64,000 nucleotides of DNA from the NCBI RefSeq assembly GCF_021023085.1, contig NZ_PGCK01000012.1:1-64000 (forward strand). The letters are read 5' to 3'. A program made the position numbers and the translations under genes. This DNA comes from Methanooceanicella nereidis (GTDB lineage Archaea > Halobacteriota > Methanocellia > Methanocellales > Methanocellaceae). The notes beneath the pieces are model-generated. The model was not told where the DNA came from. It saw only the letters and a program-made list of their open reading frames with translations, and made no database searches. Numbering within the stretch: position 1 is the stretch's first letter; every line of letters begins with the position of its first letter. Shown here in pieces: positions 34,655 through 48,750 of the stretch.

Positions 34655-35638
34655 ATGAGCATAAAGTATCAGGCCGGATCGAAAATACAGGCGGTGATAG
34701 ACGCTTTAAAGAAGGAGTATCCTGAAGCGGCGATACAGACACTTAGCCATGACTTCGATTCGTATGACATGATACTTGAGCATGACTCAATGGTGCTCAT
34801 CATCGGCATCAAACTGACGAGAGCGACCTCTAAGACCGTGTTTAAGCTATTACTATATGCAAAGGCTGTCGCTCAAAGATACTCGGGGAAAAAGGTAGTC
34901 ATCAAGCTTTACGCTCCTTCAATATTGCCTGAAGCAGAAACTGCATTAAGGAAGTCAGGCGGGATCTTTCAGAAACTGGGCACTGTGAAGCCTAGAGGCA
35001 AGGCTTCAGATACGGTCAAGATATGCTCTCCCGGATCATGGAAAGTAGTATGCTATTTTATTAAGAACGAAGAGTCCACCATGAACCAGGCATCGGTGAA
35101 TACGGGCGTATCGTACCCATGGGCTCGTGCAGTCATAAAAAAACTGATTGAGCTGGGAGCTTTTGAAGAGAAGGGGAAAAAAGTAAGGCTTGCAAACATC
35201 GATGAGCTTTTTAAGGCCGTCGCATGGGAAAGGCCGATAAGCAGCCTTAAAGGTGTTGAGTTCAAAAGCGCGTTCCATGATGAGCAGGAAGCGCTACGTG
35301 AAATATTTTGCAATATAGAGGGCATAATCCCGCGTTCGGCATGCGCCCTGTATACCGCGGCCGACCTGTATCTCGAGGGCAGGGCAAGCGGAGGGTGCGT
35401 TCAGATGTATGCCGACGAAAATTCCGCCCTTGTCATAAAAAGCATGCTGGGAGAAGGGGACGGCGTCATATTTCAGATATATTATCCTGACCGAGACTTC
35501 GGGGATGAACTTTATTCAATAGACGATATACATGTGGTATCTATGGAGCAGACTATACTAGACCTCGCAGGTCTGGGCATAGCCGGCTCTGATGCTGCAA
35601 AGGTGATGGCCAGGCAATATCGTAATGCCAGCGAATAA
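34655..35638 (+). CDS. AbiEi-like / winged-helix protein, unknown
   Basis: A 327-aa protein. The N-terminal 110 residues look like a small alpha-beta domain, possibly nuclease-like (DSMVLIIGIKLTRATSKTVF, then KVVIKLYAPSILPEAETAL). Residues about 125-190 hold a winged-helix pattern (KVVCYFIKNEESTMNQASVN, then SYPWARAVIKKLIELGAFEE). The C-terminal part ends SMEQTILDLAGLGIAGSDAAKVM, which recalls the tail of type IV antitoxins of the AbiEi kind. No AbiEii-type nucleotidyltransferase toxin is next to it. TATA-like TTATTTATAT near 34620 lies about 30 bp upstream, so the mRNA may be leaderless. Assignment is by pattern only. Confidence 0.55.
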   Translation: MSIKYQAGSKIQAVIDALKKEYPEAAIQTLSHDFDSYDMILEHDSMVLIIGIKLTRATSKTVFKLLLYAKAVAQRYSGKKVVIKLYAPSILPEAETALRKSGGIFQKLGTVKPRGKASDTVKICSPGSWKVVCYFIKNEESTMNQASVNTGVSYPWARAVIKKLIELGAFEEKGKKVRLANIDELFKAVAWERPISSLKGVEFKSAFHDEQEALREIFCNIEGIIPRSACALYTAADLYLEGRASGGCVQMYADENSALVIKSMLGEGDGVIFQIYYPDRDFGDELYSIDDIHVVSMEQTILDLAGLGIAGSDAAKVMARQYRNASE

Positions 35639-35653
35639 AGAATAAAAAAGAGT

Positions 35654-35857
35654 TTAAAACTTAAGCTTTTTAAACTCTTCAATGTCGTATGCGAGCCTGC
35701 CCAGTTCTTCGTCCGTGATCTCCACACGGTTCTTTATAACTCTAAGTTCTGCGTTGAGCTGCTTTATTCTTGCATACATGATGTACATTATGATAAAGCA
35801 TATAACAAAACCAACCGATAGCAGCCCTATGATCAATTCCAGGAACATCTCGTTCAT
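35654..35857 (-). CDS. Small membrane/coiled-coil protein at the end of the MinD operon
   Basis: A 67-aa protein with one N-terminal membrane helix (about 5-27, FLELIIGLLSVGFVICFIIM) followed by a charged, probably coiled-coil tail (ARIKQLNAELRVIKNRVEIT and following). It starts two bases after the MinD stop, so it is almost certainly translated with it. The layout (helix plus coiled coil) suits a membrane anchor or partner for MinD or the roadblock proteins; this is inference. It is the last gene of the minus-strand hydrogenase-roadblock-MinD cluster. Confidence 0.75.
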   Translation of the reverse strand: MNEMFLELIIGLLSVGFVICFIIMYIMYARIKQLNAELRVIKNRVEITDEELGRLAYDIEEFKKLKF

Positions 35858-35859
35858 TA

Positions 35860-36648
35860 TTAAATCCCTCCGAATAACGATCTCGCAAGCCTGTCAATGA
35901 AGCCTTCTTTCTTAGCTGTGCTCGATTCTTCGAGCGACACCTTGGATCCGGTGAGCTTTGCCGCAAGCCTCTTATATGCCAGGGATGCCGGGCTGTCCGG
36001 ATATTTTATTACGACAGGGGTCTTGAACGCTGCCGCTCTTCTGACATGAGCGTCGTCCGGCACTACCTCCAGCACCTTCACGCCCATGATATCACCGATC
36101 TTCTGGCTTGTAAGTTCCGTTTTTTCAGCAGATGCCCTGTTAAGAACGATGCCTCCGACCGTGCCGCCCACCATTTCGGTAAGCACTTTAGTCTTAACCG
36201 CATCGGCCATTGAAGAAAGCTCAGGGTTCACTACCAGTAGCACCTCATCAGCGATCGCCAGCGGGATCACCCCATCCTTACTTATACCTGCCGGCGCATC
36301 GATGAGTATAAAATCAGCTCCCGAGACCAGTTTGCTCATTACGAACTGAAGCCTGTCAGGGTCGGCGTTCTGGAATCCCTGGAGCGATATGCCGCTCGGC
36401 ACGACCTTCAATCCTGTCGGGAGTTCATATATGGCCTGGGAAATATCTGCTTTTCCAGCGAGGACTTCGTGCAGGGTTATCTTACTCCTTTCAAGTCCTA
36501 GTACCAATCCCAGGTTTGCCATTCCGATATCCGCATCTAATATTATGGTCCTATTTCCTAAAAGCGCCAGCGAGGTACCCAGGTTGACCGTCGTCATCGT
36601 CTTACCTGTGCCACCTTTACCGGAGGCGATAGTATATACCTTTGTCAT
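35860..36648 (-). CDS. minD: MinD/ParA-family ATPase with C-terminal membrane-targeting helix
   Basis: A 262-aa deviant Walker ATPase. Residues near 8-16 form KGGTGKT (deviant Walker A), IILDADIGMANLGLVLG follows, and FILIDAPAGIS is Walker B. The C-terminus, KKEGFIDRLARSLFGGI, is an amphipathic helix closely like the membrane-targeting sequence of bacterial MinD. So ATP-dependent membrane cycling is likely. I chose ATG 36648 because AGGGTGA lies five bases upstream; an upstream GTG (36657) would add three residues. It lies in one operon with roadblock proteins and a [NiFe] hydrogenase, pointing to spatial organisation of that set instead of a classical division role. Confidence 0.9.
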   Translation of the reverse strand: MTKVYTIASGKGGTGKTMTTVNLGTSLALLGNRTIILDADIGMANLGLVLGLERSKITLHEVLAGKADISQAIYELPTGLKVVPSGISLQGFQNADPDRLQFVMSKLVSGADFILIDAPAGISKDGVIPLAIADEVLLVVNPELSSMADAVKTKVLTEMVGGTVGGIVLNRASAEKTELTSQKIGDIMGVKVLEVVPDDAHVRRAAAFKTPVVIKYPDSPASLAYKRLAAKLTGSKVSLEESSTAKKEGFIDRLARSLFGGI

Positions 36649-36705
36649 TCCATTCACCCTTTTATGTTCTTATAACCCCACCACGAAATAAATGATCATG
36701 ATTAA

Positions 36706-37578
36706 TTACTTGCTTAGCAGCGCGAGATTTATCATACTTTTAATCTCATGACGCCCATACCTTATATCTTTATTTTTCAATGACTCTATAAATGACCCTA
36801 TCTGGTCTTCTGACGGATAGTCATATTTTTCGAGGAATCTTTCTATCTCCTCAAGGACTTTTTCTCTATCCTTTCTCTTTCTGTCCTCAATCCCTAAATA
36901 TATTTTTTCTAATACAGTATTCTCTTCGAAACAATATCCCTTATTCTTCAAATACCTTGTGAAGTCCATAATATCCAGGCTTGAGGGTTCATTCTGCCGT
37001 TTTATGAAATCGCTTATCTCCATGTCCAGCGTAAGTTCGGCTTTCGGTGCTTCAGGTAGGGGGCTTGCTTCACTTACCGGGATCAAATTTGCCGGCGGCT
37101 CAATATTTACACTGGGCGTCGTATGGGTCACTACGGTCTGCGGTTCATTTTCCTGCGACCTTTCAGGACCCATTTTTCCCATGGCCATACGTATCTTACG
37201 GGCCTCTGTTATGAGGCTCATGATCTCGTCCCCATCCGTTTGCAGGATCCTGGCGAACTTTTCGATGTTAACATCATCAGAGATGTCGGAGGGAATAGAT
37301 GCAGCCTCACTGACGATGCTCATCATATCGTCCATATCTTTCTCCTGCACAATATTGTTTTCATATTTTTCAGATGCTATGCTGAATATTGATGAAGCTT
37401 GATCTTTATCGAATATTTCGTGAAGGAGATCATTTATATTGGCCATATCCGGCTCACCTTCACGGGATATCATCTCAAGGACCCTGCTTTCCCCTCCGGC
37501 ACTCAGATACCGGTTCAATCCGTCCTCCTTTGCGACATCCTTTACCGTTTCCTTCAGTATGACCTCGAAGTTTTTCAA
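36706..37578 (-). CDS. Helical protein of unknown function in the roadblock/MinD cluster
   Basis: A 290-aa hydrophilic, mostly helical protein with a TTG start preceded by GGGGGGT six bases upstream. The N-terminal 140 residues are acidic and helical. A Pro-rich linker (about 145-180, SVNIEPPANLIPVSEASPLP) separates them from a C-terminal helical domain (about 185-290) with repeated YLKNKGYCFEENTVLEKIYL-type and SFIESLKNKDIRYGRHEIKS segments that look like two copies of a 45-residue helical repeat. I do not recognise a family. Its place between the domain proteins and MinD suggests an adaptor. Confidence 0.7.
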   Translation of the reverse strand: MKNFEVILKETVKDVAKEDGLNRYLSAGGESRVLEMISREGEPDMANINDLLHEIFDKDQASSIFSIASEKYENNIVQEKDMDDMMSIVSEAASIPSDISDDVNIEKFARILQTDGDEIMSLITEARKIRMAMGKMGPERSQENEPQTVVTHTTPSVNIEPPANLIPVSEASPLPEAPKAELTLDMEISDFIKRQNEPSSLDIMDFTRYLKNKGYCFEENTVLEKIYLGIEDRKRKDREKVLEEIERFLEKYDYPSEDQIGSFIESLKNKDIRYGRHEIKSMINLALLSK

Positions 37579-37590
37579 TACTATACCCCC

Positions 37591-38625
37591 CTAATGCTTC
37601 TTTTTCCCGCCGTTGATCAGAAGATGCGTCAGTTCCAGCTTTTTTAAGATCTCGTCCACACTGTTGGCGAAATCTTTCTCTACCCTTTTTACCAGCGCAA
37701 CATCGTCATCATAAGTATCGATCTCTATATCGTCCTCGACCACCTTTCTTTCTAATTCCGCGTTTTCCAGTATGGCTTTTGCAGATACGCCTATTGTACG
37801 CCGGCCTTCCGACGCCATGTTATACATGGTTTGCTGTGTCGCCTTATTTTCCGGCACCTGTCCGGAACCTATCAGAATGTCCGGGTACATTCTTAAAACC
37901 GAGTTAATGACATGTTCTTCAATGCGATAGATCTCAAGATCTCCGCCAGCATCGATTATCCGGTCGAATAGCTCACGTCCCCTGTGATGCTCTGAATAAG
38001 CCGCCTCCACATTGCCATTTAATAATATTATATGATATTCCTTGTATCCAGCCCCGTTTTTCTCGAAAAATATGATATGTCCGGCATCTATCCGCCTTTC
38101 ATCCAGATATGACCGCAAGCTCGGTACGCTCTCGGCCTTGATGAACTGGCCCCTTATTTCCGGCATCCCCGCCCTCTTGCCGGGGACTGCCTGTGTATTT
38201 GTTTTTACGGCTTCCTGTCTCTGGTTTTTTACCGCCGGCATCCCATCTCTGGAAATCTCCGTCTTTTGGGATGCAGCCGGCTGGCTCGTTTTTACCGGTA
38301 TCCTGAACTCTTTGCAGGCGTCATTCATGAGCTGGATCTGGCTCTGGTTAAGGCTGCAAAGCTCGATAATAGCGTCTTCGTTCTCCGTGATCTTCGATGT
38401 GAACTCAAGTTCAGGGTCAGGAAGCTCTTTCTTGCCATTGGATCCCATGGATATTACGGGTTTTCCGGAATCGTATACGACCACCCCTTCGAGAATCTCG
38501 CCGGAACCGATGATAGATACCCTGAGGTACCCGTTGAACTTCTCAACGAGAAATGACTCGTTGATATCTTTCAGGGATCTTGGTCCCTTTTCACTATTTA
38601 CCAGTGTTCCACGAGGCAGCCACAT
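37591..38625 (-). CDS. Two-domain archaeal protein (DUF2226-like repeats)
   Basis: A 344-aa protein. The first domain (about 1-115) begins MWLPRGTLVNSEKGPRSLKD and has GEILEGVVVYDSGKPVISMG. After a Lys/Gln-rich linker (about 120-175) a second domain (about 180-280) runs RGQFIKAESVPSLRSYLDER to RMYPDILIG. The same pattern (short beta start, gain-of-glycine strand, and a final R-x-YP-x-x-LI) appears in the N-terminus of the next upstream protein (RTYPESLIK), so the set shares one domain, which I believe matches archaeal DUF2226-type proteins. The C-terminal 60 residues are helical and charged. Function unknown; starts six bases after its neighbour. Confidence 0.7.
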   Translation of the reverse strand: MWLPRGTLVNSEKGPRSLKDINESFLVEKFNGYLRVSIIGSGEILEGVVVYDSGKPVISMGSNGKKELPDPELEFTSKITENEDAIIELCSLNQSQIQLMNDACKEFRIPVKTSQPAASQKTEISRDGMPAVKNQRQEAVKTNTQAVPGKRAGMPEIRGQFIKAESVPSLRSYLDERRIDAGHIIFFEKNGAGYKEYHIILLNGNVEAAYSEHHRGRELFDRIIDAGGDLEIYRIEEHVINSVLRMYPDILIGSGQVPENKATQQTMYNMASEGRRTIGVSAKAILENAELERKVVEDDIEIDTYDDDVALVKRVEKDFANSVDEILKKLELTHLLINGGKKKH

Positions 38626-38631
38626 ACTGTA

Positions 38632-39366
38632 TTACACATCTTTTACGTTCATCTGGGCGTTTTTGATCATAAGCCTGACAAGACCCAGGTTAACGTCCTT
38701 GCCGGCAAGGACGCACAGGAACATATCGCTTATAGGGGCGATTACCACCTTATACTGGGGTGTCTCCAGTATTATCTGATCGGTCTTTCCGAGCTGTAGC
38801 TCCTCAGTGATCTTCATTCCGGCACGCACCATGTCTTCGGTCGCTACGGCTATATGCTCAAAGTCTACGTGGCTTCCATTTTGAAATATCGGAAATCCGT
38901 CGGCCACGAGTGCTGTGGCCGTGACTCCCGGCGCTGAGGAGATATTCGATAACAGCATATCGAAAAGGCCTTCTCCTTTGGCCGAACTCGATTCCCTGGA
39001 CTCTTCCTCCATTATCGACCTTAGTTCCTCGGTCTTTTTCTGGATATCGCTTTTTATCAGAGATTCCGGATAAGTCCTGACGATAAGGTCCACTTCGACA
39101 TCGTTGCAGGAATATATCTCCGAGACAGTGTCGGTCAGCGTCATCATTCGCTCAAGAGCGTTCATCTGGTATAGCTTGATGTTCTGTACGGAGTATGCAG
39201 ATGCCGTTATGTTACCGTCTTCCAGAAGTATGAAACCATCGGACATCCTTGTGCCCTCGGCTTTATACACTTTGATGAAGCCTTTGAAGTCCCGGGAGTA
39301 TTCTCTGATCACCTCCGGGACTGGCTTTTTCGATTCCGCTATAAAATTACCATTCGGAAGCTTCAA
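38632..39366 (-). CDS. DUF2226-like domain fused to roadblock/LC7 domain
   Basis: A 244-aa protein. The N-terminal domain (about 1-105, starting MKLPNGNFIAESKKPVPEVI and ending RTYPESLIK) is the one repeated in the 37591 protein. After a short acidic linker, residues about 132-235 form a roadblock/LC7 fold (SNISSAPGVTATALVADGFP, then AVATEDMVRAGMKITEELQL). Roadblock proteins bind small GTPases as regulators (MglB in bacterial polarity, Ragulator in eukaryotes) or dimerise with each other. No MglA-like GTPase gene is in the window. The start is TTG 39366 with AAAGGAT just before it. Confidence 0.78.
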   Translation of the reverse strand: MKLPNGNFIAESKKPVPEVIREYSRDFKGFIKVYKAEGTRMSDGFILLEDGNITASAYSVQNIKLYQMNALERMMTLTDTVSEIYSCNDVEVDLIVRTYPESLIKSDIQKKTEELRSIMEEESRESSSAKGEGLFDMLLSNISSAPGVTATALVADGFPIFQNGSHVDFEHIAVATEDMVRAGMKITEELQLGKTDQIILETPQYKVVIAPISDMFLCVLAGKDVNLGLVRLMIKNAQMNVKDV

Positions 39367-39391
39367 ATCCTTTACATCCTTGTTTTTTTAA

Positions 39392-39739
39392 TTAAAGGGC
39401 CGCTGTTATCCTATCCTTGTTCTTCTTGACCTCGTATCTGATCCTGCCCAGGTTCGCCCCGGGCTCCGCTACTATGGCCAGGATCTCGTTTTCGGTGACG
39501 AGAGATAACATTATGGGTCCGTTTTGAAGCTCTACAAGCACCTGCTCGAAGTTGCCCTTTCCAAGCTCTATGCCCATTGCTTCGGACGTACCGACACTGG
39601 TTGAAGCCATAGCCCCAAGCGCGTCCACGTCCATGGTTATGTTTGAAACGTGCTCTATTATGAACCCGTCACGCCCCAGGATCGCTGCGGCGCTTACACC
39701 CTCGACCTTGATCAGGTCGCCTAAGATCCTCTTTAACAT
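39392..39739 (-). CDS. Roadblock/LC7 (MglB-like) protein
   Basis: A 115-aa single roadblock/LC7 domain covering the whole protein: ILGDLIKVEGVSAAAILGRD, then DALGAMASTSVGTSEAMGIE, then EILAIVAEPGANLGRIRYEV. That is the five-strand, two-helix pattern of MglB-like proteins. Its ATG overlaps the 3' end of the hydrogenase large-subunit gene by seven bases, which ties the roadblock proteins to the hydrogenase in one transcription unit and probably in translation. It could form homodimers or pair with the roadblock domain of the next protein. Role in regulating or positioning the hydrogenase is a hypothesis. Confidence 0.88.
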   Translation of the reverse strand: MLKRILGDLIKVEGVSAAAILGRDGFIIEHVSNITMDVDALGAMASTSVGTSEAMGIELGKGNFEQVLVELQNGPIMLSLVTENEILAIVAEPGANLGRIRYEVKKNKDRITAAL

Positions 39740-41142
39740 CTTTTAACCTCACGAATGACATTACCCTCATTATCTACTACTCTCAACATAATAGGCATTC
39801 TGCCTATGGCATGAGTGGCACAGGATACGCACGGGTCATATGCCCTGACTACCATCTCTATCCTGTTCAGGACACCCTCGCTGACATCCTCTCCGTGTAT
39901 AAGTTTCCTGGCCGCCTGAAGCACACCTTTGTCTATCGCATCGTTATTATGTCCTGTGGCGACTATAAGGTTAGCCTTTGTGATGAATCCCTGGTCGTTC
40001 ACTGTGTAATCATGTATGAGCGTGCCTCTCGGCGCCTCGACGACTCCCACGGCTTTAGTGTTCTTTACTGCGCCCGTCGCATTCCTGATGTTCTTTTCGC
40101 AGACTGACGAGTCTGCCAGTATCGACAGGGCTTTCTCGCTTATGGCCATGTACTCTATCACCCTCGCGAGATGATAAAGGAAAGGCTGCTGTGCTATGCG
40201 GCCGAACTTTGCCCTGAACTCGCCCAGCATCCTGTCAGCTTCGGGCGTGCCCATGGAATCCACCACGTTGATGCGCGCAAGCGGACCGACCCTGTAAAAC
40301 CCGCTTCCTTTCTTAAGCGACGTAAACTTCATGTACGAGTACGGCTCAGCTCTTTCCACGATATAGCTCGCATAGTCCTTTCCGGGGAACTCGCAGAGCT
40401 GAGCGCCGTCCGCGCCTACCGCCCTTATGTTCCCGTCATACGGGTCAAATTTCCCGTCTTTGGTCAGGCCTATAAAGTCGGATTGCACTATTCCGACATT
40501 ATTGACCAAATCGGAGTACTCTTCAAACTTCGGCAGAACGAAATCCCAGCTCGCTTTAGCGATCTCCACCGAACGCTTTGCAAAGCCTTCCAGCTCGTTC
40601 TTCTTTTCGGGAGATATTGTGAATGACATACCTCCGGGCACGGCAGATACCGGATGGATGGCCTTCCCTCCGACGTCTTCTGTGATCCGCTGCCCTATCT
40701 TGCGCGCCTCTATCGCCATCTTTGCCAGGTCCCGGTTAGCTTTTACCAGGCCTGCGACGTTCCTTAGCGCCGGGTTTGAGTCCGGCCCAAGGATGAAGTC
40801 GGGCATTCCCAGGTAAAACAGGTGCAGGGAATGGGAGCTGATGAGCTGTCCTGCCAGCAGGAGCTCTCTTAGCTTGTGGGCGGTCGCAGTTATCTGGGCC
40901 CCGTATATCTCGTCGACCGCCTTCGCGGAAGCGAGATGGTGGGCCGTCGGACAAATGCCGCAAATGCGGGGCGTTATCCTCGGGGCTTCTTCCACGGCAG
41001 CGCCTTCAAGGAACTTTTCAAAGCCCCTGAGCTCCGTAGCATGGAAATGGGCTCCGGACACCTCCCCTTTGTCGTCCAGGTTTACGGTGACGCTGGCGTG
41101 GCCCTCTATTCTGGTGATAGGTGAGATAGTTAGCTTCTTCAT
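39733..41142 (-). CDS. [NiFe] hydrogenase large subunit, group 3 (Mvh/F420-nonreducing-like)
   Basis: The 469-aa catalytic subunit. The first Ni-Fe ligand motif is RICGICP near residue 60 and the second is DPCVSCATH near 437-445, so all four active-site Cys residues are present. A 26-residue tail after the His suggests maturation by a hydrogenase endopeptidase. The start MKKLTISPITRIEGHASVTV is classical. Resembles MvhA/F420-nonreducing and related cytoplasmic group 3 enzymes. No MvhD-like gene is nearby; instead a ferredoxin and a V4R-like protein precede it. ATG overlaps the small-subunit stop (ATGA). Confidence 0.92.
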   Translation of the reverse strand: MKKLTISPITRIEGHASVTVNLDDKGEVSGAHFHATELRGFEKFLEGAAVEEAPRITPRICGICPTAHHLASAKAVDEIYGAQITATAHKLRELLLAGQLISSHSLHLFYLGMPDFILGPDSNPALRNVAGLVKANRDLAKMAIEARKIGQRITEDVGGKAIHPVSAVPGGMSFTISPEKKNELEGFAKRSVEIAKASWDFVLPKFEEYSDLVNNVGIVQSDFIGLTKDGKFDPYDGNIRAVGADGAQLCEFPGKDYASYIVERAEPYSYMKFTSLKKGSGFYRVGPLARINVVDSMGTPEADRMLGEFRAKFGRIAQQPFLYHLARVIEYMAISEKALSILADSSVCEKNIRNATGAVKNTKAVGVVEAPRGTLIHDYTVNDQGFITKANLIVATGHNNDAIDKGVLQAARKLIHGEDVSEGVLNRIEMVVRAYDPCVSCATHAIGRMPIMLRVVDNEGNVIREVKRC

Positions 41143-42056
41143 AGGTGTCTCTCCTTGATGATGTCTGGTATCTTCGAGACTGACTTGTTCTCCATTATCT
41201 TGCTTCCCATGACGAACGGGTAAATGGTGTGCGGCACATCATAGATCTCTTTCTCGATCTCTTTCTGCGGCAGCTCTGTCAGGTGCTGTATCCTCATGAC
41301 CAGTATATTATACAGGTCTCTGCAGGGCTCTCTCAACACGTCGAGGGACGGCCCGCCGCATCCATGGCACGGTATCCCGTGCTCTGTGCAGACTGCGCCA
41401 CATCTTCCGAACGTCACCGAGCCCAGGCATAAGTAGCCCTGGCCAAGGAGACACTTACCTTCTTCGGGGATGCCTTCGTTCCTTCTTTTGACCTTCCAGT
41501 CCTTTACCTGTCCCATGGTCCTCTTGCATTCCGAACATACGGATTTTTTGGACAGTTCGGGCACGTTCCCGTCCAGCAGCGGGAGCAGTATCTTTCTTAA
41601 AAAGACTTCCTTTGGCGGGCATCCTGTGATATAATAATCGACCTTTATTATGTCGCCTACCGCATACCCTCTGTAGAGCAGGTCAGGCACGTCCTCTTTC
41701 GGTATCTCTTTCTTGGCAAGCGCGGGGTCCGTAAAGACTCCTTCAAGGATCTCGTTCCTGCTGTGTATGATCGAAAGGCCGGATATTCCTCCGAAACAGG
41801 CGCAAGTACCGTAGGCAATGACTATCTTCGCTCGCTGCCTGAGCTTTTTGACCCTTTCCATGTTCTCCTTGTTGCGTATGGCCCCGCCGATGATCGCGAC
41901 GTCGATCTCCTCGGGCGGCTCTTTTACGTCCATCAGAATGGGCGAGTATACCAGTTCTACCTTATCCAGAAGCTCGAGAATGTCCTCGTGAAGGTCCAGG
42001 ATCGACATATGGCATCCGGCACATGATGCCAGTGGTTCCGTTGCTAGCTTTAACAT
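41139..42056 (-). CDS. [NiFe] hydrogenase small subunit, group 3
   Basis: The 305-aa electron-transfer subunit partnering the large subunit at 39733. The proximal cluster ligands are in CAGCHMSILD (near residue 12), GTCACFGG and ITGCPP. More Cys residues occur in CSECKRTMG and in the C-terminal stretch CLGSVTFGRCGAVC, then PCHGCGGP, consistent with further [4Fe-4S] clusters as in MvhG-type subunits. It follows the V4R-like gene after a six-base gap and overlaps the large subunit by four. Electron partner is probably the ferredoxin encoded at 42590. Confidence 0.9.
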   Translation of the reverse strand: MLKLATEPLASCAGCHMSILDLHEDILELLDKVELVYSPILMDVKEPPEEIDVAIIGGAIRNKENMERVKKLRQRAKIVIAYGTCACFGGISGLSIIHSRNEILEGVFTDPALAKKEIPKEDVPDLLYRGYAVGDIIKVDYYITGCPPKEVFLRKILLPLLDGNVPELSKKSVCSECKRTMGQVKDWKVKRRNEGIPEEGKCLLGQGYLCLGSVTFGRCGAVCTEHGIPCHGCGGPSLDVLREPCRDLYNILVMRIQHLTELPQKEIEKEIYDVPHTIYPFVMGSKIMENKSVSKIPDIIKERHL

Positions 42057-42062
42057 CCCGCC

Positions 42063-42590
42063 TCACCTCAATATCAGCTTCTTCAGGCATGTGTTAGGAC
42101 CGACATGGACGATCTCTAATTTGCCTCTTTTTCCAGTTATCTCCTCAACGGCCCCGACCATGTAGCCATATAGGCTCTGGCACAGGGGTCCTTTTTGCGG
42201 CATGCCCTCTCTGCGGAGGGTCTGCCTTACCAGGCAATCCCTGAACACAAGATAAATGAAAGTCTCGCCATTTTCCGTAATGATGTAGCTGTCCTTATCT
42301 TTGGGCTTCCAGAGCTCGAAATTATATTGCCTTCCGAGGATGTCGGATAGCTCCTTCAGGGCTTTCTCCACATTGTCAGTCTTGGGGAAGTATTTAGCAG
42401 TCTCATGACCCATCTTCATTCCTGCCCTGTACACTACGGCGTTAGCGCCGCCCCTGGCGATCTCTTCCAGCGACCTTATGATGGTCGCGTTCAAGACCAT
42501 GATGCCGTGCAAAGCTTCCTCATAGTCCATGATGTTGCCTTCACAGTGCAAAGGCAGCTCTTCCGGCTTTACGACAGATGCCTGGGACAT
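42063..42590 (-). CDS. V4R-like (4-vinyl reductase domain) protein in the hydrogenase operon
   Basis: A 175-aa protein whose C-terminal half fits the V4R domain, a small-ligand sensor/carrier module: RDCLVRQTLRREGMPQKGPL, then CQSLYGYMVGAVEEITGKRG, with a last Cys in GPNTCLKK. It has three conserved-looking Cys residues. ATG 42590 is chosen because AAGGAGGT lies seven bases upstream, one of the strongest ribosome sites in the window. It overlaps the ferredoxin stop by one base. V4R proteins accompany some hydrogenases and metabolic regulators; here it may sense a hydrophobic ligand or take part in assembly. Function not known. Confidence 0.75.
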   Translation of the reverse strand: MSQASVVKPEELPLHCEGNIMDYEEALHGIMVLNATIIRSLEEIARGGANAVVYRAGMKMGHETAKYFPKTDNVEKALKELSDILGRQYNFELWKPKDKDSYIITENGETFIYLVFRDCLVRQTLRREGMPQKGPLCQSLYGYMVGAVEEITGKRGKLEIVHVGPNTCLKKLILR

Positions 42591-42835
42591 TATATGAACC
42601 TCCTTAACATTGAGCATACTTCCAGGTCGACGTAAAGTCTCCTCGATAAGTAGATATCTCTATGCTCGATCGCGTTTGACGGACAGATCTCATGACATGA
42701 TAGGCAGGCCATACAATCCTCCGGATTTATAACAGTTGATACGCCGTCCTTAAGCTCATAGACTTTCATAGGACAGTCATGGACGCATAGCCCGCAGCCT
42801 ATGCAAACCTCTTTATCTATTAATATATTTACCAT
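42590..42835 (-). CDS. 2[4Fe-4S] ferredoxin
   Basis: An 81-aa ferredoxin with two cluster motifs: CIGCGLCVHDCP (residues about 10-21) and CMACLSCHEICP (about 41-52). The C-terminal 25 residues are an extension. ATG 42835 has GAGGT eight bases upstream; a TTG at 42850 would add five residues. It begins the minus-strand hydrogenase-roadblock-MinD operon and is the likely electron carrier for the hydrogenase. Divergent from the group 4 hydrogenase operon. Confidence 0.9.
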   Translation of the reverse strand: MVNILIDKEVCIGCGLCVHDCPMKVYELKDGVSTVINPEDCMACLSCHEICPSNAIEHRDIYLSRRLYVDLEVCSMLRRFI

Positions 42836-43331
42836 CGTCCCGTACCTCAACGCTTTTAGCTAAATACCCCTGATTAGTAAGGAATTATTTTTATGTTACT
42901 TGAATATATACGTATCTCTTATAATCGAAAATATTTTTCCCGGATACCATAAATTATATATAATTTTAGAGCAAACATATGTTAAATTTGGAATAAATAC
43001 CGTTAAAAACATATTATGTCTAATAATTTGACTTTATTTTTGATTCACGCATTTGCCTGTTCAGTTAACGGCTGCTTTCCAAAAGTAATATGCTTGATAG
43101 GCGACACAATAATAAATGATCTCGTTCAGCCTCTGTAAGAAATACGGCTATCGCCAGGTATGGTAAGTGCCCTGCCCGGCGAATGTTCAGGAATAAACAT
43201 TATATATCGCCTGGGTATAGATATAATACCTTTAAAATATGGTAACGCGATGGCATTCTTGTATCAAAAGTGCCATGGAGAAAATATATCGTTCGACAGA
43301 TGAAAATAACAAGGTTAACACTGGGGGAGAA
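42836..43331. promoter_or_regulatory. Divergent promoter region between the two hydrogenase operons
   Basis: About 495 bp with no gene. For the minus strand, CGTATATATTC (read on that strand, 42902-42912) is a plausible TATA box with a leader of about 40 nt. For the plus strand, TATATATC (43201-43208) and GATATAATA (near 43220-43228) are candidates. Directly before the first is an inverted repeat, AATGTT-N8-AACATT (43182-43201), a possible operator. The shared region would allow both hydrogenases to be regulated together. Confidence 0.5.
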
Positions 43332-43778
43332 ATGACTGAAGTGATAGTCCACGACCCCGCATTATGCACTGGCTGCAGGCAATGCATGACGGCGTGTTCT
43401 TTTAAAAATTATAAGACCTATAATTATAGCTTATCGCTCTGTAAAGTGATAGAAGACCCCCGCGGGGGTTTTGTCAGGGTACACTGCCAGCACTGTAAGG
43501 ACCCGATGTGCGTGGCGGCATGCCCGAAAAAGGCGATCACCAAGGATGAGAAAACGGGCTATGTGACGATCGACCAGATGCTGTGCGTCGGCTGCAAGTC
43601 GTGCATGTACGCATGCCCCATATCCATACCACAGATGAGCAAGGGCCTCAAGGTAATGGTCAAATGCGACATGTGCGAAGGGGATCCTGCTTGCTTAAAA
43701 GTATGCTCTGCAAAGGCGATCAAGCTGATGACCAGGGTAGAAGGAACCGGACTGGTCAAGGAGATGGAGAAAAGATGA
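43332..43778 (+). CDS. Four-cluster polyferredoxin (HycB-like)
   Basis: A 148-aa protein with four [4Fe-4S] motifs: CTGCRQCMTACSF, CQHCKDPMCVAACPKKAI, CVGCKSCMYACP and CDMCEGDPACLKVCSAKAI. This is the layout of HycB/HydN/CooF-type electron-transfer subunits. I chose ATG 43332, with GGGGGAG just upstream; the longer frame from 43239 adds a region with no similarity to ferredoxins. It is the first gene of an eight-gene operon with overlapping junctions and would feed electrons to or from the group 4 hydrogenase or the HdrB-like protein. Confidence 0.88.
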   Translation: MTEVIVHDPALCTGCRQCMTACSFKNYKTYNYSLSLCKVIEDPRGGFVRVHCQHCKDPMCVAACPKKAITKDEKTGYVTIDQMLCVGCKSCMYACPISIPQMSKGLKVMVKCDMCEGDPACLKVCSAKAIKLMTRVEGTGLVKEMEKR

Positions 43779-44047
43779 AAGAGCTGTACCCCTGGCGTAA
43801 GCCTGTAAAGATATCGCTTCCGACATCAGTGAAGCCTCAGCTTATAAGGCATTTCAGCATCGGGCTGCTGTATCCTGTTACGGATGAACTTAAGGAAGCG
43901 AGGGAAAAAGCCGGCCTCGACCCGATACCTCCGACGGCTCACAGGTATAAGGAAGGTGCCGAGGACATCAGGAAGATCATCAAGGCGATGGGCGTTGACC
44001 GGAACATAGGGCTCGACCTGGAAAAGATGGAGTATAGGTTCAAATGA
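43775..44047 (+). CDS. Small soluble protein of the group 4 hydrogenase operon, unknown
   Basis: A 90-aa protein with no Cys and no membrane helix, containing KPQLIRHFSIGLLYPVTDEL and ending in a charged helix. The ATG overlaps the ferredoxin stop (ATGA) and its own stop overlaps the HdrB-like start, so it is translated in the same unit. Its position just before an HdrB-like gene recalls HdrC, but it lacks the two ferredoxin clusters of HdrC, so I do not assign it. Probably a structural or adaptor subunit. Confidence 0.7.
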   Translation: MKELYPWRKPVKISLPTSVKPQLIRHFSIGLLYPVTDELKEAREKAGLDPIPPTAHRYKEGAEDIRKIIKAMGVDRNIGLDLEKMEYRFK

Positions 44048-44919
44048 CCGTGAAATATTCACATTTCCTTGGCTGCGTCATGCCTACAAAGATGCCGTGG
44101 GCGGAAGCGGCGATCATGAGGACGCTACCGAAGCTCGGGGTGGATATAGTATATCTGGAGAAGTCCGGATGCTGCCCGAGGGCAGGTGTATGGATATCCG
44201 TCGACCGTAGGGTCTGGCTGACCCTGGCGTCATATAACCTGCTTCAGGCAGAAGAGCAGGGCAGGGATGTCATGGTATCCTGCAACGGCTGCTATGTCAC
44301 GCTTTACGAGGCCAATAAGGTACTTAATGAGGAGCCGGAGACGCTGGAAGAGGTCAACAGGTATCTTGCGGCCGCAGGAAAACATTACGACGCGAACATA
44401 CGCGTCAGGCATTTCCTCGAAGTACTGTACGAGGACGTCGGTATCGACAGGATCAGGAAAGAGAGCAAGAAGCTTAACATCCGCGTCGCCATACACCCCG
44501 GTTGCCATATGAGAATATTCGCGGACGGAAAGCTCGTAAGATACTTTACAGAGCTGATCGAGGCGCTGGGCGTGGAGATAGTGCCGTACGGCCTGGAACA
44601 GATGTGCTGCGGATTACAGTCAAACCTCGCCGACAGGCAGTTCGCGACCTATGAGCGGGCCAAGAAAAAGATGGACGCGATCATGAAGACTGACGCGGAC
44701 GCGCTCGTTCTCGTGTGCGCCGGCTGCTACGACCAGTTCGAAAGAGTGACCAACACGCTCAGAAAGAATGATAATTATGACTTTAACGTGCCAGTGATAC
44801 ATCTGGCGGAGCTCCTTGCCGTGTCCTTCGGCATGAAGCCGGACGAGTTCGGCATGCGCTACATGAGGACAGCGCCTGTGGACGGGCTCATAGAAAAACT
44901 GGAGAAAAGCGTAAAATGA
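44044..44919 (+). CDS. HdrB-like protein with two CCG domains
   Basis: A 291-aa protein of the CCG (cysteine-rich) family to which heterodisulfide reductase subunit B belongs. First CCG domain: LGCVMPTK, SGCCPRAG and SCNGCYVTL. Second: HPGCHMRIF, MCCGLQSN and CAGCYDQF. Both domains keep the C-x(n)-CC-x(n)-CxxC pattern that in HdrB binds noncubane [4Fe-4S] clusters and cleaves the CoM-S-S-CoB disulfide. It lies inside a membrane hydrogenase operon instead of an hdrABC operon. A disulfide or other thiol-linked substrate is plausible, but which one is unknown. Confidence 0.85.
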   Translation: MTVKYSHFLGCVMPTKMPWAEAAIMRTLPKLGVDIVYLEKSGCCPRAGVWISVDRRVWLTLASYNLLQAEEQGRDVMVSCNGCYVTLYEANKVLNEEPETLEEVNRYLAAAGKHYDANIRVRHFLEVLYEDVGIDRIRKESKKLNIRVAIHPGCHMRIFADGKLVRYFTELIEALGVEIVPYGLEQMCCGLQSNLADRQFATYERAKKKMDAIMKTDADALVLVCAGCYDQFERVTNTLRKNDNYDFNVPVIHLAELLAVSFGMKPDEFGMRYMRTAPVDGLIEKLEKSVK

Positions 44920-45185
44920 AACCATATTTCATCATAGCCATATTCATACTGGTCACCAGCGTTATAGGGGTGGTCCTGTCGGAAGAGATGGTCATGCTGT
45001 TCCTGTTCGCAGAGCTAGCTTCGCTCGTGTCTTTCTACATGTTCTTCTCGGTCATCATCCCGTCATTGTTCCCCGAATATAAAAAAGTGGAAGAGAACTT
45101 CAATTGTGGCGCCAACGACCTTTACCTTGATCCGGAGGAGGCCTACGGGCCCAGGACACCTTTCGGAGGTGTGAAAAATAAGTAA
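44916..45185 (+). CDS. Small two-helix membrane subunit (NuoK-like?)
   Basis: An 89-aa protein with two membrane helices (about 4-22 and 29-50); the second contains an in-membrane Glu (LFLFAELASLVSFYMFFSVI), as NuoK/HyfE-type subunits do. A hydrophilic tail of about 35 residues with NCGANDLYLDPEEAYGP follows. The ATG overlaps the HdrB-like stop. The Glu suggests possible involvement in ion translocation, but the protein is shorter than NuoK and I keep the assignment open. The next gene appears to start inside its 3' end. Confidence 0.65.
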   Translation: MKPYFIIAIFILVTSVIGVVLSEEMVMLFLFAELASLVSFYMFFSVIIPSLFPEYKKVEENFNCGANDLYLDPEEAYGPRTPFGGVKNK

Positions 45186-46749
45186 CGATTATGATCTGAC
45201 AGTATGCCGGATATTGCCGTCCGAGGTCATACCGGCGGTAAAAGACCAGCTCTCGAAAGGGGGCAGAATGATATATGCGTCAGGGGTAGACGAGGGTGTC
45301 AACGGCATTAAAGTAGACTATTATTTCGGCTTTGACCATTTGCACAGGGGTAAGCATACCATACTCAGGACGTACCTTGACAGGGAAGACCCCGAGGTCG
45401 AGTCAGTGACGCAGATCACTCCCCAGGCAGACTGGTCGGAAAGGGAATTGATAGAGTTCCTTGGCGTGAAGGCAAAAGGGCACCCGGACCCCAGGCACTT
45501 ATGGCTGCCCTTGAACTGGGAGAAGCTTCGGCTGACGGACGAGGAGAGCAAAGCCGAGGCCGCAAAGTTCAAACAGGAGCCAGTCGACAACATCCTTAAT
45601 CTGCCGGTCACAGTGGTCCCATACGGGCCTTATCATCCTGCGTTCATCGAGAGTAATTACTTTAAGATGGCCGTGGAGGACGAGGTCGTAAAAACCGCGG
45701 ACCTTAAGCTCGGTTTCAATCACCGCAGCGTGATCAAGCTTATGGAAAGGCGAGACTACTATAAGGACGTATACCTCGCGGAGAGGATATGCGGCTTCTG
45801 TAACGCTCATCAGTCCATCACGTTCGCCATGACGGCCGAATGCATAGGCAATGTGGAGATCCCTCCGAGAGCAGGGCTGATCCGAACGCTATTGTTCGAG
45901 CTTGAAAGGATACAGAGCCACCTGCTGGCAATAGGCCTGGTAGGCGACTTGATGGGCTTTAAGACAATGTTCATGCACTGCTTAAGGATCAGGGAAGACA
46001 TCCAGGACTGCCTTGAGCTCATATCGGGACAGCGCGTCACGCACGGGCTGGGCACACTGGGAGGCGTGAGGAGAGACATCACTGCATGCCAGGCTGATTT
46101 TGTGCTTTCGAAAATCAAGGCGGTGAAAAAGTCATCCGACGAGCTATTCGATCAGGTGCTGGCAAACGATGTTCTGCTGACCAGGCTTGAGGGCGTGGGA
46201 AAGCTTTCCCATGACGATGCAATAATGCTGGGCGCAGTCGGGCCCACGGCCAGGGGCAGCAACTGGAAGATAGATGTCAGGAAAAACAGCCCGTATGCAG
46301 CATATGAAAATCTTGACTGGGAGATCATAACGGAGACTGACGGAGACTGCCTGGCAAGGCTCAAAGTGAAGATGAGAGAGGTCCTGATGGCCCTTCATAT
46401 CATAGAGCAGTGCTGTGAAAAGCTTAAGTCGACGTCGGGCAGCATCGTGGCGGCGGTGTCTAAGATGCCGTGCGCGGAGGCGATATCCAAATCAGAGGCT
46501 CCGAGGGGAGAGTTGTTGTACCACGTATCCTCTGACGGCACGAACACACCCGAATATGTGCGTATAAGGACCCCGACGTTCCGCGTGGCACACATTATGC
46601 TAAAGCTGATCCACGGCGTATACGTGGGAGACGTCCCCGCGATAATCGGCTCGATAGACCCATGCTACTCATGCACGGACAGGGTCACGGTCATCAGAGG
46701 GGGAAAGGGCGAATCGGTGGAGATACGTTCGCTGGGAGAGAATAAATGA
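45178..46749 (+). CDS. Group 4 [NiFe] hydrogenase large subunit, fused NuoC-NuoD type (HycE/EchE-like); apparent AUA start
   Basis: About 523 aa. The N-terminal 130 residues form a NuoC/HycE-type domain; the rest is the catalytic subunit. The Ni-Fe ligands are present in RICGFCNAH and DPCYSCTDR, so this is an active-type hydrogenase and not a NuoD-like remnant. The first standard start, TTG 45214, lacks a ribosome site, while the same frame extends upstream to 45175 and ATA 45178 lies six bases after GGAGGTG (45165-45171). From ATA the protein starts ISNDYDLTVCRILPSEV. Overlaps the upstream gene by eight bases and the next gene (46746) by four. Confidence 0.85.
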   Translation: MSNDYDLTVCRILPSEVIPAVKDQLSKGGRMIYASGVDEGVNGIKVDYYFGFDHLHRGKHTILRTYLDREDPEVESVTQITPQADWSERELIEFLGVKAKGHPDPRHLWLPLNWEKLRLTDEESKAEAAKFKQEPVDNILNLPVTVVPYGPYHPAFIESNYFKMAVEDEVVKTADLKLGFNHRSVIKLMERRDYYKDVYLAERICGFCNAHQSITFAMTAECIGNVEIPPRAGLIRTLLFELERIQSHLLAIGLVGDLMGFKTMFMHCLRIREDIQDCLELISGQRVTHGLGTLGGVRRDITACQADFVLSKIKAVKKSSDELFDQVLANDVLLTRLEGVGKLSHDDAIMLGAVGPTARGSNWKIDVRKNSPYAAYENLDWEIITETDGDCLARLKVKMREVLMALHIIEQCCEKLKSTSGSIVAAVSKMPCAEAISKSEAPRGELLYHVSSDGTNTPEYVRIRTPTFRVAHIMLKLIHGVYVGDVPAIIGSIDPCYSCTDRVTVIRGGKGESVEIRSLGENK

Positions 46750-47675
46750 TAGACATCGCATGGATAAATCCGATCATTGCCTTTATCATGGGCATCGTTC
46801 TCTCTTTCAACCTTAGAAAGATATTCGCCAGGGTACAGTCTCGCAGAGGCCCTTTACTGTGGATGCCTAAAAGCTGGTATGGCATCAACCGCAGTAAATT
46901 TCTTCAGCCGCTATATGATATACTTAAGCTATTCAGTAAAAAGACCATAATACCCCATACCGCGACTCCTATGTTCATCATAGCTCCGATAGTCGCCCTT
47001 ATTTGTGCCATACTGGCGACGCTGTTCGTCCCTGTCGCAGGCATCTGCATGGACTACACCTTCAGCCTTGTGGTGCTATTCTACCTGCTGATAGGCGTGA
47101 CTCTCTTCGTCATAGTCGGAGGCACCTCCAGCGCTTCTCTGTTCGCGGCGATAGGCGGTGTCAGGGAAGTGGAGCTGATGCTGGCGAACGAGATACCTTT
47201 CATACTTGGCACGTTCGCGCTGGCGATATCGTATGACACGTTATCGATCAAAGAGATGATGGGCTTTAACCTGCTGACCAATCCCTTTGCTGCGGCAGCA
47301 GTATTCATCGCGATACTGGTCAAGCTGCATATAAAGCCGTTCGACATACCCGAGGCGGACTCCGAGATAGTCGGAGGGCTGACCACCGAGTACAGCGGAA
47401 AGCTGCTCGGGGTGCTTGAGATAATCAAACTGATCATGCTGTTCGTCCTGTCAGCGCTGTTCGTCGACCTGTTCCTGTGGGTACCGTCCACCGGGATCGT
47501 ATCATGGATCATATTCCTGGCGGCGATACTGTTCGTGGGGGCCGTCATAGGCTTTATTCATTCATTGTTCGCCCGCTTCAGGATCGACCAGGCCACATGG
47601 TGGCTGTTCAAGATATCGACAGTTATATCGCTCGTGGCTGTAGGGCTTGCGATCGTCGGGAGGTTCCTGCTATGA
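46746..47675 (+). CDS. Group 4 hydrogenase membrane subunit (NuoH/EchB/HycD-like)
   Basis: A 309-aa membrane protein with about eight helices. Family signatures are RVQSRRGP in the first cytoplasmic loop and FDIPEADSEIVGGLTTEYSG in the central loop, which contacts the hydrogenase module and carries conserved acidic residues near the quinone/proton path of complex I. It anchors the hydrogenase subunits to the membrane. Overlaps both neighbours by four bases. It is the only large membrane subunit in the operon: no NuoL/M/N antiporter-type subunit is encoded. Confidence 0.92.
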   Translation: MIDIAWINPIIAFIMGIVLSFNLRKIFARVQSRRGPLLWMPKSWYGINRSKFLQPLYDILKLFSKKTIIPHTATPMFIIAPIVALICAILATLFVPVAGICMDYTFSLVVLFYLLIGVTLFVIVGGTSSASLFAAIGGVREVELMLANEIPFILGTFALAISYDTLSIKEMMGFNLLTNPFAAAAVFIAILVKLHIKPFDIPEADSEIVGGLTTEYSGKLLGVLEIIKLIMLFVLSALFVDLFLWVPSTGIVSWIIFLAAILFVGAVIGFIHSLFARFRIDQATWWLFKISTVISLVAVGLAIVGRFLL

Positions 47676-48346
47676 AGAACCCTGTCAAAGCGTTTGCAGG
47701 CTTAATCGCCAACTTCTTCCGAAAGCCGGTCACCATCGAGGAGAACTACGGTTTCCTCTCGGACACGTTCAGATGGCTCCCGAGAAGGGACGATGAAAAA
47801 TGCACGGGCTGCGGCGCATGCTATGAGAGATGCTCGAGCGGCGCGACACATATCCACGACGTACAGGAAGAGCGTACCGTGTGCATAGACAGTCTCAACT
47901 GCATATTCTGCGGAAGATGTGCTGACGCATGTCCGGAATCCGCCTTAGAGCTTTCATTCGAGCCAAAGACGGACGATGAAAAGAAGGTCCGTGAAGAGAT
48001 GTTCGACATCGAAGGCGGCGAGTGCCCGCATTCCCTTATACGCCCGAAGGAGAACAAAGAAGCGTCACTGGAGTATCTGCGCAGGATAAGCCTGGCGCAT
48101 GAGCAGGGTGAGGACGGGCCGTGCACGAAGACAATGCTTCCGCTACAGCGCTGCAGCGTGTGCGGAGAGATCATGCCTGAAACGTCGAAGCATCTTGAGA
48201 TAGTGAAAAAGAGGGCGCTGGAGAACCTTCAGCCCGAGACCGCGAAGATCGTCGAGGAGGATATGAAGCTGTATCTTACCGCATGTGTCTCATGCAGGCA
48301 AAAATACAGCCTTATCTGGAACACGCACCCGAGGAAGTACATATGA
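47672..48346 (+). CDS. Group 4 hydrogenase ferredoxin subunit (NuoI/EchF/HycF-like) with extra Cys domain
   Basis: A 224-aa subunit. Two [4Fe-4S] motifs of the NuoI type are present: CTGCGACYERC (near 46-56) and CIFCGRCADACPE (near 76-88). The C-terminal 135 residues are an extension not seen in EchF/HycF, including CSVCGEIMPETSKH and CVSCRQKY, which look like a zinc-ribbon pair. ATG 47672 overlaps the NuoH-like stop (ATGA); the longer frame from 47477 is out of register with the overlap pattern and lies in the previous gene. Transfers electrons between ferredoxin and the small subunit. Confidence 0.88.
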   Translation: MKNPVKAFAGLIANFFRKPVTIEENYGFLSDTFRWLPRRDDEKCTGCGACYERCSSGATHIHDVQEERTVCIDSLNCIFCGRCADACPESALELSFEPKTDDEKKVREEMFDIEGGECPHSLIRPKENKEASLEYLRRISLAHEQGEDGPCTKTMLPLQRCSVCGEIMPETSKHLEIVKKRALENLQPETAKIVEEDMKLYLTACVSCRQKYSLIWNTHPRKYI

Positions 48347-48750
48347 GCGTATTAAAAAAATCCCCGTGGATATACCACGCCCACGCAGGCGGATGTAACG
48401 GCTGCGACATAGAACTGCTGGCATGCATGGGCCCGAGATACGACCTCGAAAGGCTGGGGATCAAGTGGGTGTCTTCTCCGCGTTATGCGGATATATTACT
48501 TGTCACAGGCCCGGTGCCGCTGCACACAAAGCCTTTCCTGGAAAGGGTGTATGCGCAGACCCCCGAGCCAAAGCGAGTCATAGCCATGGGCGCATGCGGA
48601 TGCTCATGCGGTGTTTTTATCGATGACGAAAATTATTCGATAGCAGGCCCGGTAGAGAAGATCATTCCAGTCGATGTGAAAATACCCGGCTGTCCGCCCA
48701 AGCCTGAGGCAATAATCGACGGCATACTAAAAGTGCTGAATAAGATGTGA
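48343..48750 (+). CDS. Group 4 hydrogenase small subunit (NuoB/EchC/HycG-like)
   Basis: A 135-aa subunit that carries the proximal [4Fe-4S] cluster. Ligand Cys residues are in GGCNGCDIELL, GACGCSCG and PGCPPKPEAII, the pattern of NuoB/EchC. ATG 48343 overlaps the upstream stop by four bases. It is the last gene of the operon. The downstream 569 bp are AT-rich and untranslated as far as I can see. Confidence 0.92.
   Translation: MSVLKKSPWIYHAHAGGCNGCDIELLACMGPRYDLERLGIKWVSSPRYADILLVTGPVPLHTKPFLERVYAQTPEPKRVIAMGACGCSCGVFIDDENYSIAGPVEKIIPVDVKIPGCPPKPEAIIDGILKVLNKM

Follow-up and report, generated by a model that had tools for sequence, protein, structure and literature searches.

The 64,000-nucleotide stretch of Methanooceanicella nereidis DNA analysed here (positions 1 to 64,000 of contig NZ_PGCK01000012.1, called the window) carries ten minus-strand open reading frames (ORFs) running from 42835 down to 35654 in the order fdx-v4r-hydS-hydL-rb1-patRb-pat2-helix-minD-ccTM (Table 1). 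This operon joins a [NiFe]-hydrogenase to roadblock proteins and a MinD-type ATPase, and comparison with its relatives suggested that the hydrogenase may be the sensory part of the module. The initial annotation, made from the sequence alone, had described a ten-gene operon with gaps of at most 48 bp, several overlaps and a 7-base overlap between the large subunit and the roadblock gene, all of which was borne out by measurement. The junctions ranged from -28 to +48 bases (overlaps counted as negative): fdx-v4r -28 when v4r starts at its first ATG, v4r-hydS 6, hydS-hydL -4, hydL-rb1 -7, rb1-patRb 25, patRb-pat2 6, pat2-helix 12, helix-minD 48 and minD-ccTM 2. A v4r start at 42590 aligned better than the first ATG and has just 1 base in common with the fdx stop. 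The downstream border is a plus-strand gene (34655-35638), and upstream a divergent cluster begins at 43239.

Table 1. Genes of the hydrogenase-roadblock operon in the window.
Gene	Position	Strand	Product	Basis
fdx	42590..42835	-	81-residue 2[4Fe-4S] ferredoxin, first gene of the operon	two Fer4 motifs
v4r	42063..42590	-	V4R-like protein (predicted TRAPPC3/Bet3, H-NOX superfamily fold)	alignment, AlphaFold2 model
hydS	41139..42056	-	[NiFe]-hydrogenase small subunit, MvhG/VhuG-like	Oxidored_q6 1.7e-30, VhuG 243 bits
hydL	39733..41142	-	[NiFe]-hydrogenase large subunit	RICGIC and DPCVSCATH, VhuA 428 bits
rb1	39392..39739	-	roadblock/LC7 protein, 7-base overlap with hydL	Robl_LC7 5e-14
patRb	38632..39366	-	N-terminal DUF2226/PATAN-like domain and C-terminal roadblock	Pfam DUF2226, Robl_LC7
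pat2	37591..38625	-	probable two-domain PATAN-like protein	position and blastp in family genomes
helix	36706..37578	-	helical protein, no assigned fold	
minD	35860..36657	-	archaeal MinD/FleN-type ATPase, C-terminal amphipathic helix EGFIDRLARSLFGGI	TIGR01969 314 bits
ccTM	35654..35857	-	67-residue single-transmembrane protein with coiled-coil tail	paired with MinD

HydL carries the motifs that bind Ni in active hydrogenases and ends in an extension of 25 residues; among the methanogen sequences 14-43 residues follow the last motif, that is, the cleavable C-terminal peptide is kept. The best family models for HydS and HydL were those of group 3 (our trees took in no group 2 sequences). The best matches, VhuA (428 bits against a cut-off of 800) and VhuG (243 against 450), were yet below the equivalog cut-offs, which are tuned to one subfamily. 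In the hydL tree, the rb1-linked large subunits grouped together, apart from the canonical Mvh that these genomes also encode, with a support of 100/99. The small-subunit tree separated the roadblock-linked clade from Mvh with the same support (100/99) and placed two Archaeoglobi loci (L198 and L199) and one locus from Acidobacteriota (L096, a long branch) on the roadblock side. Neither MvhD nor HdrABC was found in this operon or its relatives; they occur with the canonical Mvh paralogue, and a second, canonical Mvh of this kind is encoded elsewhere in the window's genome (G000:C4). Methanocella likewise encodes a canonical Mvh apart from this operon, next to its Hdr genes, and M. paludicola carries mvhD genes elsewhere in its genome (PMC3146512). 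The initial statement that MvhD, and with it the usual Hdr partner, is missing therefore holds for the operon and fails for the genome. On the trees, the roadblock-linked hydrogenase forms a clade of its own, apart from the canonical Mvh-Hdr enzyme.

The full ten-gene synteny was present in four of four Methanocellaceae genomes (that of the window and three others), which places the operon beyond chance. Identity to the window proteins within the family was 93-96% for the V4R-like protein, the most conserved subunit, 83-91% for Rb1, 84-89% for MinD, 82-86% for HydS, 71-75% for HydL and 67-77% for ccTM, while pat2 (31-33%) and helix (28-32%) are fast evolving. Scanning genomes with the alignment of small subunits gave 45 loci, mainly from Methanoculleus, Methanogenium, Methanofollis and other Methanomicrobiales, where fdx was kept as it was in all four family genomes. 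A locus was counted as informative when hydS and hydL were intact and the contig extended past hydL. In 41 of the 41 informative loci, from Methanocella, Methanoculleus, Methanogenium, Methanofollis and others, rb1 stood directly after hydL at a distance of -23 to +50 bp, and the loci of the clade that lacked it were those cut by contig ends. Since the loci had been found with the small subunit alone, this adjacency is an independent result and was not built in by the search. The neighbourhood check proposed at the outset, for a roadblock gene directly after an MvhA-like gene across archaea, was thus positive, and the family synteny together with these loci ruled out that the hydrogenase and the roadblock-MinD set are adjacent in one genome only.

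The same linkage was seen at the level of whole genomes. A HydS profile run over 394 genomes of the phylum scored at least 523 bits in 39 of them, the next best score being 254. An Rb1 orthologue (at least 194 bits) was present in 61 of the 394 genomes. Of these, 38 were among the 39 hydrogenase carriers, and the other 23 belonged to one family (f11), in which this hydrogenase does not occur. MinD lay in the same cluster, on either side of the hydrogenase, in 28 loci. In the Methanoculleus genome G006 no MinD was found near the hydrogenase; a minD-ccTM pair lies elsewhere (L168:6736-9570), where its neighbours are a roadblock gene and a response regulator gene. These genomic patterns indicate that the association between hydrogenase and roadblock protein is supported and old.

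The V4R-like protein has four residues that are invariant in the alignment (Cys119, Cys137, His162 and Cys168). Its name had been given in the initial annotation and was only partly confirmed: Pfam V4R matched none of 28 V4R-like members, and a sequence search of the Protein Data Bank (PDB) gave no match, so that only the fold search led to V4R. The AlphaFold2 model (predicted local distance difference test score, pLDDT, 71) matched the sensor domains of MopR and PoxR, TRAPPC3, H-NOX and the V4R protein MJ1460. With this moderate model, the Foldseek matches to the V4R/Bet3/H-NOX fold had an E-value of 1e-4, a probability of 1.0 and template-modelling scores of 0.5-0.6.

Among the remaining products, the Rb1 profile matched solved roadblock structures and MglB, and Robl_LC7 was above its cut-off. 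The patRb model (pLDDT 86.5) matched roadblock, Ragulator and MglB structures in its C-terminal half. The predicted fusion of a domain to a roadblock could thus be specified as DUF2226-like plus roadblock, while the annotated 'two-domain' protein and 'helical adaptor' (pat2 and helix) gave no significant match in the family-model searches, and the PATAN assignment of pat2 is probable. A larger patRb product of about 628 residues occurs in some Methanomicrobiales (L062:12684-14570), where a long insert of low complexity separates the PATAN-like part from the roadblock part. MinD scored 314 bits with TIGR01969, above the archaeal MinD cut-off of 201.75. The C-terminal amphipathic helix noted at first inspection is a conserved feature, as the same type, EGFVDRLARxLFxG, was kept in all 28 loci with MinD in the cluster, and a ccTM homologue directly follows MinD in Methanomicrobiales as well.

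The linkage reaches beyond the methanogens. In the Archaeoglobi genome G007 (L199), v4r-hydS-fdx-hydL are followed by four ORFs and then by minD, rb1 and a gene for a DUF2226 protein, all on one strand; in G049 (L198), hydS, fdx and hydL occur with a pair of V4R-like genes and with a divergent rb1. The HydL of both (L198:4122-5339 and L199:10809-11981) ends with DPCLSC(S/A)(T/S)H followed by a stop and has no C-terminal peptide. Selenocysteine had been suspected from a TGA within three Archaeoglobi large-subunit matches, and was rejected after reading L198 and L199, where an ordinary stop lies right past the last His ligand. In L096, from a metagenome-assembled genome (MAG) of Thermoanaerobaculia (Acidobacteriota), the hydrogenase genes hydS and hydL (the latter with its frame broken in the MAG) are accompanied by a maturation protease gene, a V4R-like gene, a ferredoxin gene with another V4R-like part, a Ras-like GTPase gene and several roadblock-like genes. 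The GTPase gene (L096:5547-6077) lies between roadblock-like genes directly behind the hydrogenase, and this set is possibly the bacterial counterpart of the archaeal module.

The neighbours of the roadblock-MinD genes were also compared in relatives. In Methanogenium and its relatives, patRb is followed in the same run by x210, PilB, PilC1 and PilC2, and an archaeal prepilin peptidase gene lies divergently beside them; Methanogenium marinum has fdx-v4r-hydS-hydL-rb1-patRb-x210-pilB-pilC1-pilC2 as a single tight run on one strand. In 21 of the 23 f11 genomes, rb1 shares its strand with x210 of the pilus operon and lies 3.3-6.7 kb from it; the remaining two are on broken contigs. All ten f11 loci that were fetched showed rb1-patRb-PilB-PilC1-PilC2 without a hydrogenase, and all ten had pat-TMlongin-minD, often with ccTM, divergent beside this run. 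A double V4R protein (Pfam V4R 1e-28) was found at nine of the ten and at none of the hydrogenase loci searched, and it occupies the place where the hydrogenase would be. At L185:11578-13705 and similar f11 loci of Methanomicrobiales that lack the hydrogenase, the double V4R protein is in some cases accompanied by a response regulator with a PAS domain beside the pilus-roadblock locus. Because the f11 loci combine double V4R and roadblock-PATAN-MinD genes beside pilus genes and without a hydrogenase, a V4R input and the roadblock-PATAN-MinD set appear to belong together, with pilus genes as a recurrent neighbour and the hydrogenase as an alternative or added input. MinD/FleN (arCOG00589) and roadblock (arCOG02603) proteins have been tied to archaeal type IV pili in a survey that leaves hydrogenase unmentioned (PMC4858521, Makarova 2016).

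Further observations concern the surroundings of the operon and other roadblock genes. The divergent cluster upstream in the window (43239-48750, plus strand) resembles a group 4 hydrogenase (ferredoxin, HdrB-like CCG protein, NuoCD/H/I/B-like subunits) and is probably the Drh complex described for Methanocellales; it adjoins the operon in three of the four family genomes, but not in M. paludicola. A second roadblock locus in the window's genome (L157:8214-10506) encodes a KaiC-like ATPase, a GTPase-like protein and a roadblock protein, and a second roadblock gene of M. paludicola (L171:7780-8145), 60% identical to rb1, lies in a surface-polysaccharide-like region.

From the parts, their order, the clade, its conservation and the pilus linkage in relatives, we infer a chain in which the electron path, the role of H2 as signal, the protein contacts and the output would be as follows. 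HydS-HydL would oxidize H2 at HydL, and the electrons would travel via the HydS [4Fe-4S] clusters to the operon's own dedicated 2[4Fe-4S] ferredoxin. Electrons, or the redox state, would reach the cysteine-bearing V4R-like protein, which would read the redox state and in turn be read by the roadblock proteins (Rb1 and patRb) and the PATAN-like proteins. These may set the activity or position of membrane-bound MinD and its partner ccTM, which would act on type IV pili or other surface machinery. We slightly favor, at a little better than even, this interpretation of the operon as a roadblock-linked sensory hydrogenase module that feeds H2 input to roadblock-MinD control of pili or surface machinery. 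The wider proposal is tentative, falling somewhat short of even: that Methanocellales, most sampled Methanomicrobiales families and some Archaeoglobi share an undescribed H2-sensing [NiFe] class, derived from the group 3c stem and acting via V4R-like and roadblock proteins on MinD to control type IV pili.

Several observations weigh against a sensory role. The proposed chain is weakest at its pilus output in Methanocella, where the operon is not beside pilus genes. The PilB loci of the window's genome and of G002, also of Methanocellaceae, had no rb1, patRb or MinD adjoining among the genes listed, and pilus linkage was rejected as a general explanation for Methanocella itself. The linkage of hydrogenase to pilus genes changes only about two times on the hydL tree and therefore does not represent many independent events. 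No histidine kinase or Ras-like GTPase is present among the ten genes of the operon, and the V4R-like fold is read from a model of moderate confidence. Classical sensory hydrogenases (HupV/HoxC) are without a C-terminal peptide, unlike the methanogen HydL, which keeps one. Moreover, the roadblock-linked enzyme is the only Mvh-like large subunit in G006 and similar Methanoculleus genomes, so a metabolic role in supplying HdrABC is conceivable.

That role would make the enzyme an ordinary group 3c Mvh feeding HdrABC via an MvhD encoded elsewhere, with the roadblock genes as passengers of operon history. It agrees with published assignments of MCP_2492-2493 in M. paludicola (with mvhD 1575 elsewhere; PMC3146512) and of Memar_1007-1008 in M. 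marisnigri (with the MvhD Memar_0622 beside Hdr; PMC2686161) to Mvh, with the reported expression of a 3c enzyme in Methanoculleus (PMC11201294) and with the sole large subunit of G006. However, we consider it unlikely, given the separate Mvh beside the Hdr genes of Methanocella, the distinct clade, and a strict linkage to rb1 and the V4R-like gene over several families that recurs in Archaeoglobi and one bacterium, which is unexpected for passengers. Another explanation, rather unlikely though just ahead of the passenger account, retains a metabolic hydrogenase feeding ferredoxin that the roadblock, PATAN and MinD proteins tether, cluster or switch at the membrane, with Drh or Ech perhaps close by. 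The dedicated ferredoxin, the conserved amphipathic helix of MinD with a transmembrane partner in the same operon, the adjoining group 4 cluster in three of four genomes and the scaffold role of roadblock proteins in Ragulator, which is among the fold matches, are all consistent with it. Nevertheless, M. paludicola retains the operon without an adjoining Drh, and genomes without the hydrogenase conserve the roadblock-MinD set alongside pilus genes, so the primary client of the set would not be the hydrogenase. This was close to the initial interpretation of an enzyme positioned, clustered or switched at the membrane. The linkage behind it is real, and membrane coupling is plausible because the 28 clustered MinD proteins always have the amphipathic helix. 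An input to a surface module fits better than the positioning of an enzyme, since the set exists with pilus genes without a hydrogenase and since Methanogenium has a single run with PilB and PilC. The reverse direction, with the hydrogenase as the target whose H2 oxidation is switched by roadblock, PATAN and V4R-like proteins depending on redox state, on a small molecule or on contact with a surface, seems very improbable: V4R domains do bind small molecules in MopR and PoxR and the tight co-conservation is also compatible with it, but the roadblock module serves pilus clients where no hydrogenase exists.

The sensory module favored here shares features with several known systems. It resembles group 3c MvhADG-HdrABC in the closest homologues of both catalytic subunits, the Ni ligands and the VhuG-type [4Fe-4S] small subunit, but differs in an operon without MvhD or Hdr, a separate clade and its ferredoxin, V4R-like, roadblock, PATAN and MinD partners. 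With the group 2b sensory [NiFe] enzymes (HupUV/HoxBC) and the group C [FeFe] enzymes it would share an H2 input to a signaling chain, and the Archaeoglobi HydL ends at the His ligand without a C-terminal peptide, as does HupV/HoxC. Unlike group 2b, it is related to group 3c, has no histidine kinase, keeps the peptide in methanogens and is partnered by roadblock and MinD proteins. It contains the protein classes of the archaeal type IV pilus regulators (FleN/MinD and roadblock) and lies beside PilB-PilC in relatives; in many Methanomicrobiales with the same rb1 the module is encoded with PilB/PilC, whereas the Methanocella module is not next to pilus genes. The MglA-MglB and conservon (Cvn) GTPase systems likewise use roadblock, NTPase and PATAN-type partners to control polarity or pili, but the archaeal operons carry MinD instead of the Ras-like GTPase that is present in the bacterial L096. 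V4R/TRAPPC3-type and roadblock folds were among the best structure matches, as in the Asgard roadblock/TRAPPC3 proteins, from which the operon differs in joining these folds to a redox enzyme. In HydDB, group 3c is defined by its link to heterodisulfide reductase, and the sensors listed include the kinase-linked 2b and the chemotactic C2 types. Pending experiment, the module would best be filed with hydrogenase-based signaling.

In the open-access literature we found no published link between a hydrogenase and roadblock, MinD or pili. Genome papers list MCP_2492-2493 (Methanocella) and Memar_1007-1008 (Methanoculleus) as F420-non-reducing hydrogenase serving heterodisulfide reductase (PMC3146512, PMC2686161), and a later study calls an expressed Methanoculleus 3c enzyme bifurcating (PMC11201294). 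Metabolic models that treat the roadblock-linked enzyme as an electron-bifurcating Mvh are called into question by the present reading. The H2 sensor of methanogens was stated as unknown in 2011, and the roadblock-linked hydrogenase may be this long-missing sensor rather than another fuel enzyme. It offers a concrete candidate, and an output at the pilus or cell surface would be sensible for organisms living on the H2 of syntrophic partners: if the proposal is true, a methanogen could attach or move according to H2.

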